IMG/VR virus record: IMGVR_UViG_3300033571_005056
Location: 1-35,791 of that record
Source of the DNA: a virus
Length of the DNA: 35,791 nucleotides
Strand: one strand, 5' to 3'
This document shows positions 19,122 to 23,555 of the stretch, piece after piece. A program made the position numbers and the translations under genes. The notes beneath the pieces are model-generated. The model did no database searches. It was given only the letters and a program-made list of their open reading frames with translations, and was not told the origin of the DNA. The number at the start of each line of letters is the position of its first letter. Position 1 is the stretch's first letter.

Positions 19122-20951
19122 TTAGTTTTTAATTAATTCTCTTTCCAAGGCTAAATCTTTAACAATTTTAATTGCCTCTTCGCTTAAACCCTCATTTATC
19201 ATTAATTTACTTAACTTTAGGAAATCCAATTGCTCCATTTGCGTGGGAGGAGTGTTCTCAGCAGGCTCTTGGCCGCCTGCTTCACCTGGGCCAGGACCTG
19301 CCATACCGCCGCCAGGGGGAGCACCAGGGGGAGCCATACCACCCATGCCAGGAGCACCACCCATTGCCATTCCGGGAGGCATCCCAGCAGCAATCGCTCC
19401 CATGATTGGATCTTGAGACTGTTCTTCCAATTTCTTTTTGATTTCATCTATTTCCTCATCATTCATTTGATAATAAGTCTTGTAAATGTATTCCATCGGG
19501 AATATGTTTAAACCTTTTACCGCTTGAACAAGTCTGGCTTTTTGCTCATCAATATCTAGCTGTCTCTTAGCCGACATATCGGATGGCTCAGGAAGTTTAA
19601 TCTTAAGTTTTGATACAGTTAAAGGTGGAAATCCCTTAACCAGCAAATGTCGCTTAAGCATTGCTTCTAGGCCAATTTGAATGCATTGCTGTACTCTTAG
19701 GATTACTCTTGCAAACTTAACATCGAGTTGGCTAAGGTTAGCCTTGCGTTCTGGGGATTGATCTTTCTCTACGATGTAATCCTTTGGAATCTTTAGAGTC
19801 GCTAAAAGCTTATCTCTAAAGTACTTAACGTCATCTACTTCACCAAGATTTTCTGCTCCCTTTAGTGTATCAATCTTGGTGCCTGATCCTTTTCCATTCA
19901 CTGATACGAAAAAGTCTTCATCCTGTGCCATTGGATTGAATCTAGCATCAATCTCACCTGTTTGACGATTAAAGTATTTTTCTTTCTTGAATTTGCTTTT
20001 TTGCATCTCAAGATAATGCTCTGCTTTAGATGAAGGTAAATTTCCAGTATCAATATAGAAAATTCTCCTCTCCGGTGCGCGAGTTAACCTATAGATTAAC
20101 ATGGCGTCTTCCATCATTTTCAGTGACTTGTAGACGCTTCTAGCAGCCCCAGCAATTGATTTACCGTAAGGGTAGTAAGTTGGGTCAGACGTAAACATTC
20201 GGAAATGTACAATCTGATTTTTATCGAGAGGAATAACTACACGTTGTGCAGTTGTAGTGCCTACTTTACCAAATATAGTGTTGTCAGTTTGAAGTGGTAT
20301 TTCTTGTAAAAAATCAGTTAATATACCGTAATTGTTTTCAATTCTGTAAATGTAGTTTGGATCTAGAATTTTAATCTTTTGAATACCACGGCGAATATTA
20401 TCAATATCTACAACAAGTTCAACGAAGCAATCTCCATACTTCACGGTATTGCGAACAACATCCCACAGTAAATTCTCAAGAGAAATATCTGTAAAAAATG
20501 TCTCAGCCTCATCTTTAACGAGTTGGTCATCGGTGTCTACTTCCCAACGGCTCCCGTCTAAGTTTAATTGAGTTGAATCGTCTGCATAAATATCAAAAGC
20601 GGCAGCCACCTCTGGATAGTCATCCATATCCTCAAATTCTTGGTATCTGCGTTTGCGCTCAAGTTCTTCTTCGTTTATTGGAATTAATTGAGTAGTCTTC
20701 CCAGGAGCCATGGTGCTCGCAGGAGTTCTCCTAAGCAGTGTATCACCTTCTAAAGGATGGGGTTGCGGAGGTAGAATTTCTAAAGGAGTCGTTCCATTTT
20801 GATCTAAATTAGGCTCTGATCTACCAGATAAAAATTTAGCAAAGAACTTGCCGGTACGACCGATAGGGTAATACCAAGAGCCAAACCAGCTTGAAATGCT
20901 TCCTCTGCTAGGAGCAAATTGTGTGTAATTTTCGTTTAACTTAGTAGCCAT
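19122..20951 (-). CDS. Portal vertex protein, T4 gp20-like
   Basis: A 609-aa portal protein. Recognisable parts are the N-terminal clip/wing entry (EFEDMDDYPEVAAAFDIYAD), PYGKSIAGAARSVYKSLKMM, the stem region LTRAPERRIFYIDTGNLPSS, and YIVEKDQSPERKANLSQLD before the helical crown. These match T4 gp20-type portals in order. The C-terminus has a Gly/Pro/Met-rich linker (~515-570) and a final helix. The dodecamer forms the DNA entry channel and docks terminase. Its first 16 nt overlap the end of the terminase C-half gene, consistent with the terL-portal coupling of T4-type phages. Confidence 0.9.
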   Translation of the reverse strand: MATKLNENYTQFAPSRGSISSWFGSWYYPIGRTGKFFAKFLSGRSEPNLDQNGTTPLEILPPQPHPLEGDTLLRRTPASTMAPGKTTQLIPINEEELERKRRYQEFEDMDDYPEVAAAFDIYADDSTQLNLDGSRWEVDTDDQLVKDEAETFFTDISLENLLWDVVRNTVKYGDCFVELVVDIDNIRRGIQKIKILDPNYIYRIENNYGILTDFLQEIPLQTDNTIFGKVGTTTAQRVVIPLDKNQIVHFRMFTSDPTYYPYGKSIAGAARSVYKSLKMMEDAMLIYRLTRAPERRIFYIDTGNLPSSKAEHYLEMQKSKFKKEKYFNRQTGEIDARFNPMAQDEDFFVSVNGKGSGTKIDTLKGAENLGEVDDVKYFRDKLLATLKIPKDYIVEKDQSPERKANLSQLDVKFARVILRVQQCIQIGLEAMLKRHLLVKGFPPLTVSKLKIKLPEPSDMSAKRQLDIDEQKARLVQAVKGLNIFPMEYIYKTYYQMNDEEIDEIKKKLEEQSQDPIMGAIAAGMPPGMAMGGAPGMGGMAPPGAPPGGGMAGPGPGEAGGQEPAENTPPTQMEQLDFLKLSKLMINEGLSEEAIKIVKDLALERELIKN

Positions 20952-22021
20952 TTAAGATCTTCTTCGTGAATTAAACCACCGGGAGTTCTAATATAGTATT
21001 TAGACTGGGTAATTGGCACATTAAACTTATCTCCATCATTTGGTCGATGTTGGAGCATGGGGGTATTAACTCTTAATTCATTAAATCCATGAACAGCCAA
21101 GGCTAGACCCATAATTAAATCATCGTGGCAGTTAACGTCGGCTTTGTACCTACCAACTTCGTCAATAATAAAGGTTAAAAGCTCATCTACTGTACGGTCA
21201 GAGTTTAGTTTAATTTTATTTAATCTTATTGCCTCATCCATCTGAACTAACATTTGCCTACGATTTGCCTCTGATATTTGTACCCCAGCCTCATGTTTTT
21301 CATCTAAAAATAGGTTTTCGTACTGCTCTACATCTTTTATCTGATAGATTAAATTGTGCCCAATCATGTTACGTTCCGGCACGACATAGGCTGTGTTATA
21401 CTCCCGAGCAATCTGAACTACGATTGTAGCAAACTCATTGATAGGTGTATTAACTGACCTGAATTCAGCTACTTGCTCTCCAGTATAAATATCAATTACT
21501 TGTGCCACGGAGGCATCCAGACCCCTACCAATAGAGGTGTCAACTCCAATAATGTAATCGTGATTAGGGTTTGGGTGATGCCAAATTCTAAATCTGTTGT
21601 TATATCTTGTTGTGTAATTATCGTTTATCTGCTCTTTTAATTGCTTTAGAATTTCACCGTCTACGAAAGTATCACCTGTACCTAAAAACTCACAATTATG
21701 ACTTAGAATTCCATTTGAAAAATAACTATTGTCTGCCCCTGTGTTAACAGGGTCATAAACTGAGACAGGCTGGTTTACAGTGTTTATAGAAAATATTTTT
21801 TCTACGCCCGAATCAGTAAATATTAAATCACCTATTCTTAAATCTTTAGCTTCCTTAAATTTATTTGGGCTAATACCAATTCTATGAGATTCAGAGCATT
21901 TAAGAATTTTTGATTCAGTAATAATTTCAATGTAAGAAGTTATTGTTTTTTTTGTTATGCCTTTAAAAGGTTCAAACCCATTTTTTGTTTTTATAAGATA
22001 TTTATTATTTGCTTTATACAT
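20936..22021 (-). CDS. Large terminase C-half: intein C-fragment plus nuclease domain
   Basis: A 361-aa protein in two parts. Residues 1-109 are an intein C-fragment with block B-like LKCSESHRIG (His46), block F around VSVYDPVNTGADNSYFSNG and block G ILSHN (His108-Asn109). Cys110 is the +1 extein residue. The rest (EFLGTGDTFVDGEILKQLKE onward) is the terminase nuclease domain: Asp161 in IIGVDTSIG, Glu216 in VPERN, Asp300/301 in HDDLIMGLALAV, as in T4 gp17. Trans-splicing with the N-half would rebuild a ~515-aa TerL that cleaves concatemers and packages DNA. The start overlaps the endonuclease gene by 8 nt. Confidence 0.88.
   Translation of the reverse strand: MYKANNKYLIKTKNGFEPFKGITKKTITSYIEIITESKILKCSESHRIGISPNKFKEAKDLRIGDLIFTDSGVEKIFSINTVNQPVSVYDPVNTGADNSYFSNGILSHNCEFLGTGDTFVDGEILKQLKEQINDNYTTRYNNRFRIWHHPNPNHDYIIGVDTSIGRGLDASVAQVIDIYTGEQVAEFRSVNTPINEFATIVVQIAREYNTAYVVPERNMIGHNLIYQIKDVEQYENLFLDEKHEAGVQISEANRRQMLVQMDEAIRLNKIKLNSDRTVDELLTFIIDEVGRYKADVNCHDDLIMGLALAVHGFNELRVNTPMLQHRPNDGDKFNVPITQSKYYIRTPGGLIHEEDLKWLLS
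21695..22021 (-). other. Split intein C-fragment (109 aa) coding segment
   Basis: The segment covers MYKANNKYLI to the terminal HN. It contains blocks B, F and G, so the split lies before block B, giving a long C-fragment. Canonical split inteins such as DnaE split after block B and leave only ~35 aa on the C side. The layout is that of the atypical AceL-TerL intein known from a terminase in Ace Lake metagenomic data. Confidence 0.85.
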
Positions 22022-22640
22022 TTGTCCATGATCTCCCTGAAATTATATGTTTTATGCATTGGGTAGTAACTTTGTAAATCAAAGAATACTTTTTAGAAAA
22101 AGCTTGATCGTAGCTCATTGCTCTTCCATTTTGTTGTACTTCTCCAACTCCATCTAAAATAGGTTTAGATTCATATAAATTTTTTATTTCTTTGATTTGG
22201 ATAATTGAAAGTTTTGAATAAAATACCTTTCCTTTATGGTGTTTTTTTATTTTTTCAATAGTTTCTGGAGATCGTTTTCTTCCTCTTTGATAACTTCGGT
22301 CAACAAGTTTCTGTGATTTGCTCATTTTAAGTTTAGATTCCTCTGAAAATTTATAACCAAGTGTTGTAAATCCTGAGTTATTGGGCCATCCTTTTCCAGT
22401 TTTAGTTTTATTTAATCCAATATTTTTCAAATAACTTTTTTGAGAAGTTATTTCTTTCTCCTCTAACTCTTCTATTAATTTTCTATCTTCTGATTCGTGT
22501 AAAATTTCATAAGTAAACTTAATACCTTTAAATGTTTTTCGTTTGTGACAACTAAGTCTATTAGAAAAACCTTTGTCATAAGTAATTCCAATGTAAATTA
22601 AATTATTCTCACCGATTAATTTATACACTATATGCTTCAT
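22014..22640 (-). CDS. GIY-YIG homing endonuclease in the intein gap
   Basis: A 208-aa endonuclease with the GIY-YIG module at the N-terminus (HIVYKLIGENNLIYIGITYD), conserved Arg in SNRLSCHKR (~27) and Tyr/Glu-rich helices after it. NUMOD3-like DNA-binding repeats follow (SEESKLKMSKSQK and SPETIEKIKKHHKGK), and a helix-turn-helix-like end carries CIKHIISGRSWTNV. It lies between the two terminase halves in the same direction, as expected for a free-standing homing endonuclease that spreads a fractured intein locus by cutting intein-less alleles. Confidence 0.88.
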   Translation of the reverse strand: MKHIVYKLIGENNLIYIGITYDKGFSNRLSCHKRKTFKGIKFTYEILHESEDRKLIEELEEKEITSQKSYLKNIGLNKTKTGKGWPNNSGFTTLGYKFSEESKLKMSKSQKLVDRSYQRGRKRSPETIEKIKKHHKGKVFYSKLSIIQIKEIKNLYESKPILDGVGEVQQNGRAMSYDQAFSKKYSLIYKVTTQCIKHIISGRSWTNV

Positions 22641-22670
22641 ACAGCTATATAGTGTTCCTAGGAAATCAGT

Positions 22671-23555
22671 CTAGCCTAATAAATTAAAAAGATCTTCTAT
22701 TTTTATTAAAGATATTTCATTTGTTTGGCAATTCATTACTTCAATTAAAGTATCCCCGGTTACGCATTCATACTCTTGCAGCCATTCTTTGTGGGATACG
22801 GACCCCCTAGTTTTTTTCTCCCAATCCTCTATACTTAATGGCGGGTCTAATTTAGCCATTGCTTCGTACATTTTTTCATAACCGGGATGCCTGAAATACT
22901 GAGGGTGGTCTTTCCAATTAATATCAATAGCATGAAAAGAGTTCTCGCCTCTTCTAGCCCCCGTGTATTGACGGTGGAACCAATTACCTACACCGTTCAC
23001 TGTGGATAAAGCAATTACCGAACCACCTGTGGAGATAACAGGGAATGCAGCAGCCCAAATAGTATCAATGTTTTCAATAAACGCAGCTTCGTCAAGAATT
23101 AACAATGAAGCAGCAGCAGAACGCCCAGATTGCTTAGAGGAAGATTTAGATTTAATTTCAGATCCATTTACAAATCTTAATGCATGTGCCGAATCTTTAA
23201 TTACTTTTGGCTTCAGCCATTCAGGAAGCTCATCGTAAGCAGTTTTCATTCTGGAAAGAACTTCCATGGAAGCATCATCATCCTTGGACAGAATTACAAC
23301 TTTGTAGTGCTCAGTAAACATGCACTTCCACAGGGAAAAAGCAGCAACAAGAGTAGTACAGCCTGCTTGTCTAAATTTACGAAGAATGTTAAATCTGTTA
23401 GATTTAAACTCATTTATTAGTTTTTTCTGAAATGGATAAAGATCAAATTTAACGAGTCCAAAGATCGGATGTACTACTTTTATGTAATTACAGATAAAGT
23501 ATACCGGATCTTTTCTACATTTATCAAATTCTTGCTTAATTTTATTTATGTCCAT
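22671..23555 (-). CDS. Large terminase N-half: ATPase domain plus intein N-fragment
   Basis: A 294-aa protein. Residues 1-263 are the gp17-type packaging ATPase: a Walker A-like RKFRQAGCTTL (~59-69), Walker B LLILDEAAF (151-159), and the coupling motif ALSTVNGVGNWFHRQY. Residues 264-294 (CVTGDTLIEVMN onward, with IKIEDLFNLLG) are an intein block A N-fragment, after which the frame stops. The extein joint EYE/C lies at the end of the ATPase domain. AGAGATGA precedes the ATG. Active packaging would need protein trans-splicing with the C-half gene 650 bp downstream. Confidence 0.88.
   Translation of the reverse strand: MDINKIKQEFDKCRKDPVYFICNYIKVVHPIFGLVKFDLYPFQKKLINEFKSNRFNILRKFRQAGCTTLVAAFSLWKCMFTEHYKVVILSKDDDASMEVLSRMKTAYDELPEWLKPKVIKDSAHALRFVNGSEIKSKSSSKQSGRSAAASLLILDEAAFIENIDTIWAAAFPVISTGGSVIALSTVNGVGNWFHRQYTGARRGENSFHAIDINWKDHPQYFRHPGYEKMYEAMAKLDPPLSIEDWEKKTRGSVSHKEWLQEYECVTGDTLIEVMNCQTNEISLIKIEDLFNLLG
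22674..22766 (-). other. Split intein N-fragment (31 aa) coding segment
   Basis: The segment begins with the catalytic Cys (codon 22764-22766) of block A, CVTGDTLIE, and ends LFNLLG before TAG. Only block A is present, which is an unusually short N-fragment. Together with the 109-aa C-fragment it makes a 140-aa mini-intein without an internal endonuclease domain. Confidence 0.85.

Follow-up and report, generated by a model that had tools for sequence, protein, structure and literature searches.

How does a phage come to carry its large terminase gene in pieces, and what brought the pieces about? The question is raised by a 35.8-kb stretch of DNA from an IMG/VR virus record (IMGVR_UViG_3300033571_005056; hereafter the window, meaning the whole stretch of 35,791 nucleotides), the minus strand of which holds three reading frames where relatives have a single terL. 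The first encodes the ATPase half of the terminase and runs into a short intein N-fragment (IntN), the second a putative homing endonuclease, and the third, overlapping the second by 8 nt, a long intein C-fragment (IntC) fused to the nuclease half (Table 1). Very probably, terL has here been broken by a mobile element composed of an atypical split intein and the gene of a GIY-YIG homing endonuclease between its halves, an element that would splice, home and repress its own nuclease gene. IntC, of 109 aa, holds blocks B, F and G and ends in the residues SHN, after which Cys110 occupies the +1 position; the exteins, once joined, would give a terminase of 263 + 252 = 515 aa. A conserved gene is thus broken at an intein site with a separate endonuclease open reading frame (ORF) between the intein halves, which is the arrangement of a fractured gene.

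The two terminase halves were identified by profile matches, the N half to Terminase_6N (E 6e-13) and phrog_5989 (E 3e-42) and the C half to phrog_24361 (E 6e-16). For the intein, the closest reference was Cat (PDB 6dsl), which is the AceL/GOS-TerL consensus: IntC matched CatC (6dsl_B) at E 6e-12 over residues 1-110, and IntN matched CatN (6dsl_A) weakly (E 0.25) yet over its full length. When the AlphaFold model of IntC, the confidence of which is moderate (predicted local distance difference test, pLDDT, of 67), was searched with Foldseek, Cat 6dsl_B ranked first (E 4e-5, 33% identity) and VidaL second. By sequence and by modelled fold, the C-fragment is predicted to have a HINT fold nearest to those of Cat and VidaL. 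All residues of a class 1 split intein are present, namely Cys264 (Cys1), H46, H108, N109 and Cys110 (+1), and H46, H108 and N109 are invariant in an alignment of 10 sequences. A preliminary description of the locus had read it as a split intein resembling AceL-TerL, and the AceL-TerL-derived Cat is indeed the best match by sequence and by fold; its coordinates and residues (a 31-aa block A fragment, Cys264, Asn109, Cys110, a 109-aa fragment and a product of about 515 aa) were all correct on recheck.

The gene in the gap matches NUMOD3 (E 7e-7) and the homing endonuclease family phrog_314 (E 3e-13), and its relatives in the Vibrio phages VP-1 and K469 give stronger matches to the Pfam GIY-YIG profile (4e-7 and 1.5e-6). 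The window nuclease was judged from these profiles to combine a probable GIY-YIG catalytic domain with DNA-binding motifs. Two results speak against the assignment: the Pfam GIY-YIG match of the window protein itself is weak (E 0.036) and falls under the cut-off, and a fold search with its model returned no significant match. Searches of solved structures gave no match for the nuclease alone and one weak match for IntN alone. A group I or group II intron in the gap was considered and rejected, as the window gave no match to Rfam.

Between the IntN stop and the ATG of the nuclease gene lies a spacer of 30 nt (ACTGATTTCCTAGGAACACTATATAGCTGT), the counterpart of which is found in L004 (CCCGAATTCCTAGGAAGTCTATATACTTTAT), a contig carrying a diverged homologue of the entire locus. 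The two sequences are similar to the codons with which the C-extein opens (x-E/D-F-L-G-T), and they keep exact register with them, starting at the base that follows the IntN stop. When 1450 offsets along terL were compared, the top scores in both loci, 12.8 and 12.2 of 18, fell at offset 0, no other offset exceeding 9.0, and none of 1000 shuffled spacers equalled the real score. Two blocks, the 10-nt TTCCTAGGAA and the 7-nt CTATATA, are unchanged between the window and L004, while fourfold sites of the element are 43% identical (P ~6e-7, for blocks that were picked after being seen). A scan of viral_contigs with the pattern TTCCTAGGAANNCTATATA alone returned three contigs, L004, the window's twin and L132, and in all three the match lies in the gap of a split-intein terL. 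The locus in L132 (L132:1806-4385) was found solely via the spacer core; its N-extein is 30% identical, and the insertion lies at the position that corresponds to the one in the window (LQEME/C), with Cys at +1. The gap nuclease of L132 opens with an HNH-like motif and shares with the window enzyme only the C-terminal region (28% identity, residues 85-205), a region common to GIY-YIG enzymes of the same niche. These comparisons show that the nuclease gene is directly preceded by a conserved copy of the downstream part of the putative target.

Such a copy could be a decayed and functionless duplicate of the C-extein start left behind by the insertion, as might be suspected from the fact that in both the window and L004 the spacer starts with the very base that follows the IntN stop and keeps codon register with +1. 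We regard a relic of this kind as a serious possibility, if a somewhat improbable one, considering that the two blocks have stayed unchanged and that the core is kept in L132 despite a TerL of such low identity. The mimic in L132 moreover takes in the TGT codon and differs in its register to the IntN stop, and for this reason function is favoured over a passive relic. Three observations pull the other way. Chance matches of the 17-base core are to be expected at a low rate, a genome collection of 257 Gb having given 7, none of them a split terL; the mimic was not found in the other split-terL loci examined, and would therefore mark one sub-lineage; and CTATATA, the conserved block that adjoins the mimic, occurs only once in the window, so that recurrence gives a promoter role no support. 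A T4-type late promoter (TATAAATA) was rejected since its frequency in the window is at chance level. In a literature search of partial coverage no report was found of an operator of such kind for a split-intein endonuclease.

The movement of the element can be followed in sister phages that lack it. L005, L006 and L007 belong to the same type of phage, lack the element and have Ala at +1, and the DNA of L005 and L007 is 96-97% identical to the window over ~8 kb. Along terL the window and L005 differ at 22 of 1419 positions outside a short tract (98.4% identical) versus 40 of 126 (32%) from -102 to +24 (Fisher P 4e-31; permutation maximum 18). The differences in the tract begin at -100 and end at +21, and a small extra cluster lies at +84 to +99. 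Within the tract L005 keeps its usual distance from the other empty alleles and the window does not, which argues that it was the window that received foreign DNA. From -102 to -60 the window stands at an unusual distance from almost every empty allele, and from -60 to 0 it is closest to L004; its tract alleles are common to L004 at 15 of 23 sites from -66 to +24, the empty controls scoring 4-8. A donor of the tract was searched for and none was found; L004 itself was rejected, since its identity to the window at -102 to -60 is only 52%. In the terL tree, made with the flanks removed, the window is placed among L005-L007 with L004 as sister, and in this clade of 33 members the window and L004 alone carry the element. 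The +1 residue is Ala in all 31 intein-free members of the clade and Cys in both occupied ones, while Cys predominates in TerLs farther away. By established intein chemistry, standard splicing cannot be completed with Ala at +1, and co-conversion would therefore have supplied the nucleophile. The alleles compared show that the element arrived recently in the window lineage; the donor DNA that came with it, about 100 nt on the upstream side and 21-83 nt on the downstream side, changed the +1 residue from Ala to Cys. Spread into empty alleles accompanied by co-conversion, as these phages record it, is behaviour expected of a homing endonuclease.

Phage terL genes recombine, and the element might accordingly have been moved by ordinary homologous recombination with a relative, the more so as cleavage is something that we infer. 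Recombination without a driving endonuclease is nevertheless improbable, given that the foreign DNA is confined to those short flanks and centred on the insert, that the rest of terL is only 1.6% different, and that L004 has a short run of shared alleles at the same place. That the window is instead ancestral, and its sisters became empty through conversion by an allele without the element, would agree with the presence of the element in L004, the sister of the window group; this is less probable still, both from the normal distance of the sisters to other empty alleles in the tract and from the nesting of the window inside the empty sisters (support 92/80), on account of which loss would need more steps.

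A separate contig record, L003, has the same locus with zero differences over terL, and in L004 every part is intact, the exteins being 82-87%, the intein 53-60% (IntN 53%) and the nuclease ~63% identical to those of the window. An assembly artefact or a chance arrangement was rejected on these grounds, since L003 repeats the locus and L004 keeps a diverged version of it. The ratio of nonsynonymous to synonymous divergence (dN/dS) between the window and L004 is 0.24 for the nuclease (95% interval 0.15-0.38) and 0.23 for IntC (0.00-0.42). The element is intact, and judging by these ratios the nuclease and IntC are under purifying selection. The silent-site divergence between the two loci is ~0.6 and alike in element and exteins, which weighs neither for nor against independent acquisition of the element in the two. 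That the split locus is the wreck of a dying, non-splicing intein, as two separate reading frames and a stop within the intein may suggest, is scarcely credible in view of the intact catalytic residues in the window and L004, of dN/dS intervals below 1 and of the fact that terL is essential for tailed phages.

We propose that each TerL half is made as a protein of its own and that the two would trans-splice via Cys1, Asn109 and Cys+1 into the 515-aa terminase. In intein-free phages the C-terminal region of the endonuclease would bind the C-extein start (codons E-F-L-G-T) and its nuclease domain would cut upstream, in the N-extein, after which repair of the break would copy the element into the empty allele. 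In the occupied phage the nuclease may bind the mimic and repress its own gene, as I-TevI does; the mimic would not be cut because no N-extein sequence adjoins it. The parts agree with each other, in that the putative binding half-site lies downstream of the insertion and is copied by the mimic, the cleavage half lies upstream and is absent beside the mimic, and the tract is longer upstream. For the wider proposal the chances seem to us evenly balanced: that a sub-lineage regulates itself through a conserved, uncuttable half homing site, that the catalytic domain (GIY-YIG or HNH) has been swapped while binding domain and operator were kept, and that homing co-converts a splice-blocking Ala at +1 to Cys. 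The spread of split inteins has so far been deduced mostly from layout, and near-identical empty and occupied alleles make it possible to trace a homing event at single-base resolution, including the exchange of a residue with which splicing would have been blocked. From the conserved copy of the target that precedes the nuclease gene follows a specific prediction of self-regulation. A 19-base tag taken from the spacer alone was enough to find a new and distant split terminase, and a binding domain would appear to have kept its DNA site even though the cutting domain was exchanged.

Table 1. Features of the split terL locus in the window.
Feature	Position	Strand	Evidence or remark
TerL N half (ATPase) with IntN, 294 aa	23555-22671	minus	
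TerL N-extein, ATPase half, 263 aa	22767..23555	minus	Terminase_6N, phrog_5989
Co-conversion tract (putative), upstream part, -102 to -1	22767..22868	minus	identity valley against L005-L007
IntN, 31 aa, Cys1 = Cys264, CVTGDTLIEV...NLLG; stop 22671-22673	22671..22766	minus	alignment to CatN 6dsl_A
Spacer, 30 nt, putative homing-site mimic ACTGATTTCCTAGGAACACTATATAGCTGT	22641..22670	minus	register test and pattern scans
Spacer block TTCCTAGGAA	22664-22655	minus	kept in L004 and L132
Spacer block CTATATA	22652-22646	minus	kept in L004 and L132
Free-standing GIY-YIG/NUMOD3 homing endonuclease gene (predicted), 208 aa	22014..22640	minus	phrog_314, NUMOD3; homologue of 64% identity in L004
C half (IntC with nuclease half), 361 aa	22021-20936	minus	
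IntC, residues 1-109, block B CSESH, block G ILSHN	21695..22021	minus	CatC 6dsl_B; Foldseek
TerL C-extein, nuclease half, 252 aa plus stop; +1 Cys codon TGT 21694-21692	20936..21694	minus	phrog_24361, phrog_2
Co-conversion tract (putative), downstream part, +1 to +24, including the Ala-to-Cys change at +1	21671..21694	minus	

Other terL loci are broken or invaded in different ways. In Campylobacter phage NCTC12673 (L035:3004-4332 and L123:1411-2127) the TerL halves lie ~26 kb apart on opposite strands, with an IntN at the end of the N half (IDEC..., Walker B site) and an IntC at the start of the C half, so that the halves of the split intein are unlinked. The terL of phage IBB_35 is described with an intein plus an intron/HNH (PMC3322345), apparently not with an unlinked split of this kind. 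The terL of L125 (IMGVR_UViG_3300044951_000964) is apparently broken by two split inteins; one fragment has its own IntC before Walker B and an IntN at the QEYE site, and is followed by an HNH-like ORF and then by the C half. In VP-1 (L026) terL has a contiguous intein at Walker A in addition to a split intein at QEYD/C. L121 (IMGVR_UViG_3300020048_000114) has a split intein at Walker B, the gap of which is occupied by a free ORF of 367 aa, and its IntC ends in Ser-Asn instead of His-Asn (GILSSN/C). L004 has an extra ORF of 238 aa near terL (L004:1455-2171), HNH-like by eye, and none of that size is listed around the window terL. In L127, L129 and L131 a gene near terL has an intein-like start after REYE (CISGDTIIPL...) that continues in frame.

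The layout of the window locus also recurs, in the phages PX29, VP-1, K469 and PSTRCR_127 and in L004. In the preliminary description a full locus with a GIY-YIG gene in its genomic context was implied to be rare, which does not hold, since one is already in GenBank (PX29) and others occur in several isolates and contigs; the proposal made there that the endonuclease spreads the locus has gained direct population evidence, in that some of the sister phages carry the element and others lack it and that the co-conversion tract is sharply bounded. The layout itself is already known; what is new is the homing scar with its +1 change, and the operator-like copy of the target. The gap is variously filled. 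The GIY-YIG domain is fused behind IntN in the Vibrio phages VP-1, K469 and 1.244.A and free in Providencia phage PSTRCR_127 and Serratia phage 92A1, and Va1 has a DUF559 domain in the gap; by eye, an HNH-like ORF was seen in L125, a GIY-YIG-like domain fused to the C half in L130 and another nuclease type in the gap of L131. The insertion codon of the window is that of VP-1, K469, Va1 and EniLVp02; PX29 and PSTRCR_127 have theirs one codon further upstream.

Among known systems the nearest in layout is Aeromonas phage PX29 (NC_023688, RefSeq), annotated with a 'putative N-intein' (17A) and a 'putative GIY-YIG endonuclease and C-intein' (17B). As in the window, TerL is split by an N- and a C-intein with a GIY-YIG endonuclease; unlike the window, the endonuclease is fused to the C half, the insertion is one codon upstream and the mimic was not found. 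Fractured genes, in which an endonuclease gene lies between split intein halves, were reportedly described by Dassa et al. in 2009 under a title said to name a new endonuclease family; the gap of the window holds a putative GIY-YIG enzyme, and other types occupy it in Va1 (DUF559) and L132 (HNH-like). AceL-TerL and GOS-TerL are atypical split inteins in TerL, the IntN of which is short (25-37 aa) and the IntC long (~104 aa) (PMC11766414). They and Cat, the nearest solved structure, share this layout with the window but are only about one third identical to it, and they were characterised as splicing tools, whereas the window comes with population evidence. I-TevI, of the T4 td intron, has a copy of its homing site before its own ORF (15/20 nt) that acts as an operator, bound but hardly cut (PMC2988022). 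The window and L004 likewise have a homing-site copy immediately before the endonuclease ORF (an average of 12 to 13 of 18), but I-TevI belongs to a group I intron, while the window has a split intein, the nuclease of which may bind the copy and the copy of which may overlap a promoter. In haloarchaeal MCM-d inteins Pro was changed to Ser at +1 by co-conversion during homing (PMC10643990), and the window phage similarly would have had a splice-blocking +1 residue, Ala in place of Pro, replaced by a nucleophile through co-conversion; the MCM-d element is a contiguous LAGLIDADG intein of archaea, whereas that of the window is a split intein with a free, putative GIY-YIG gene in a phage, with its tract mapped base by base.

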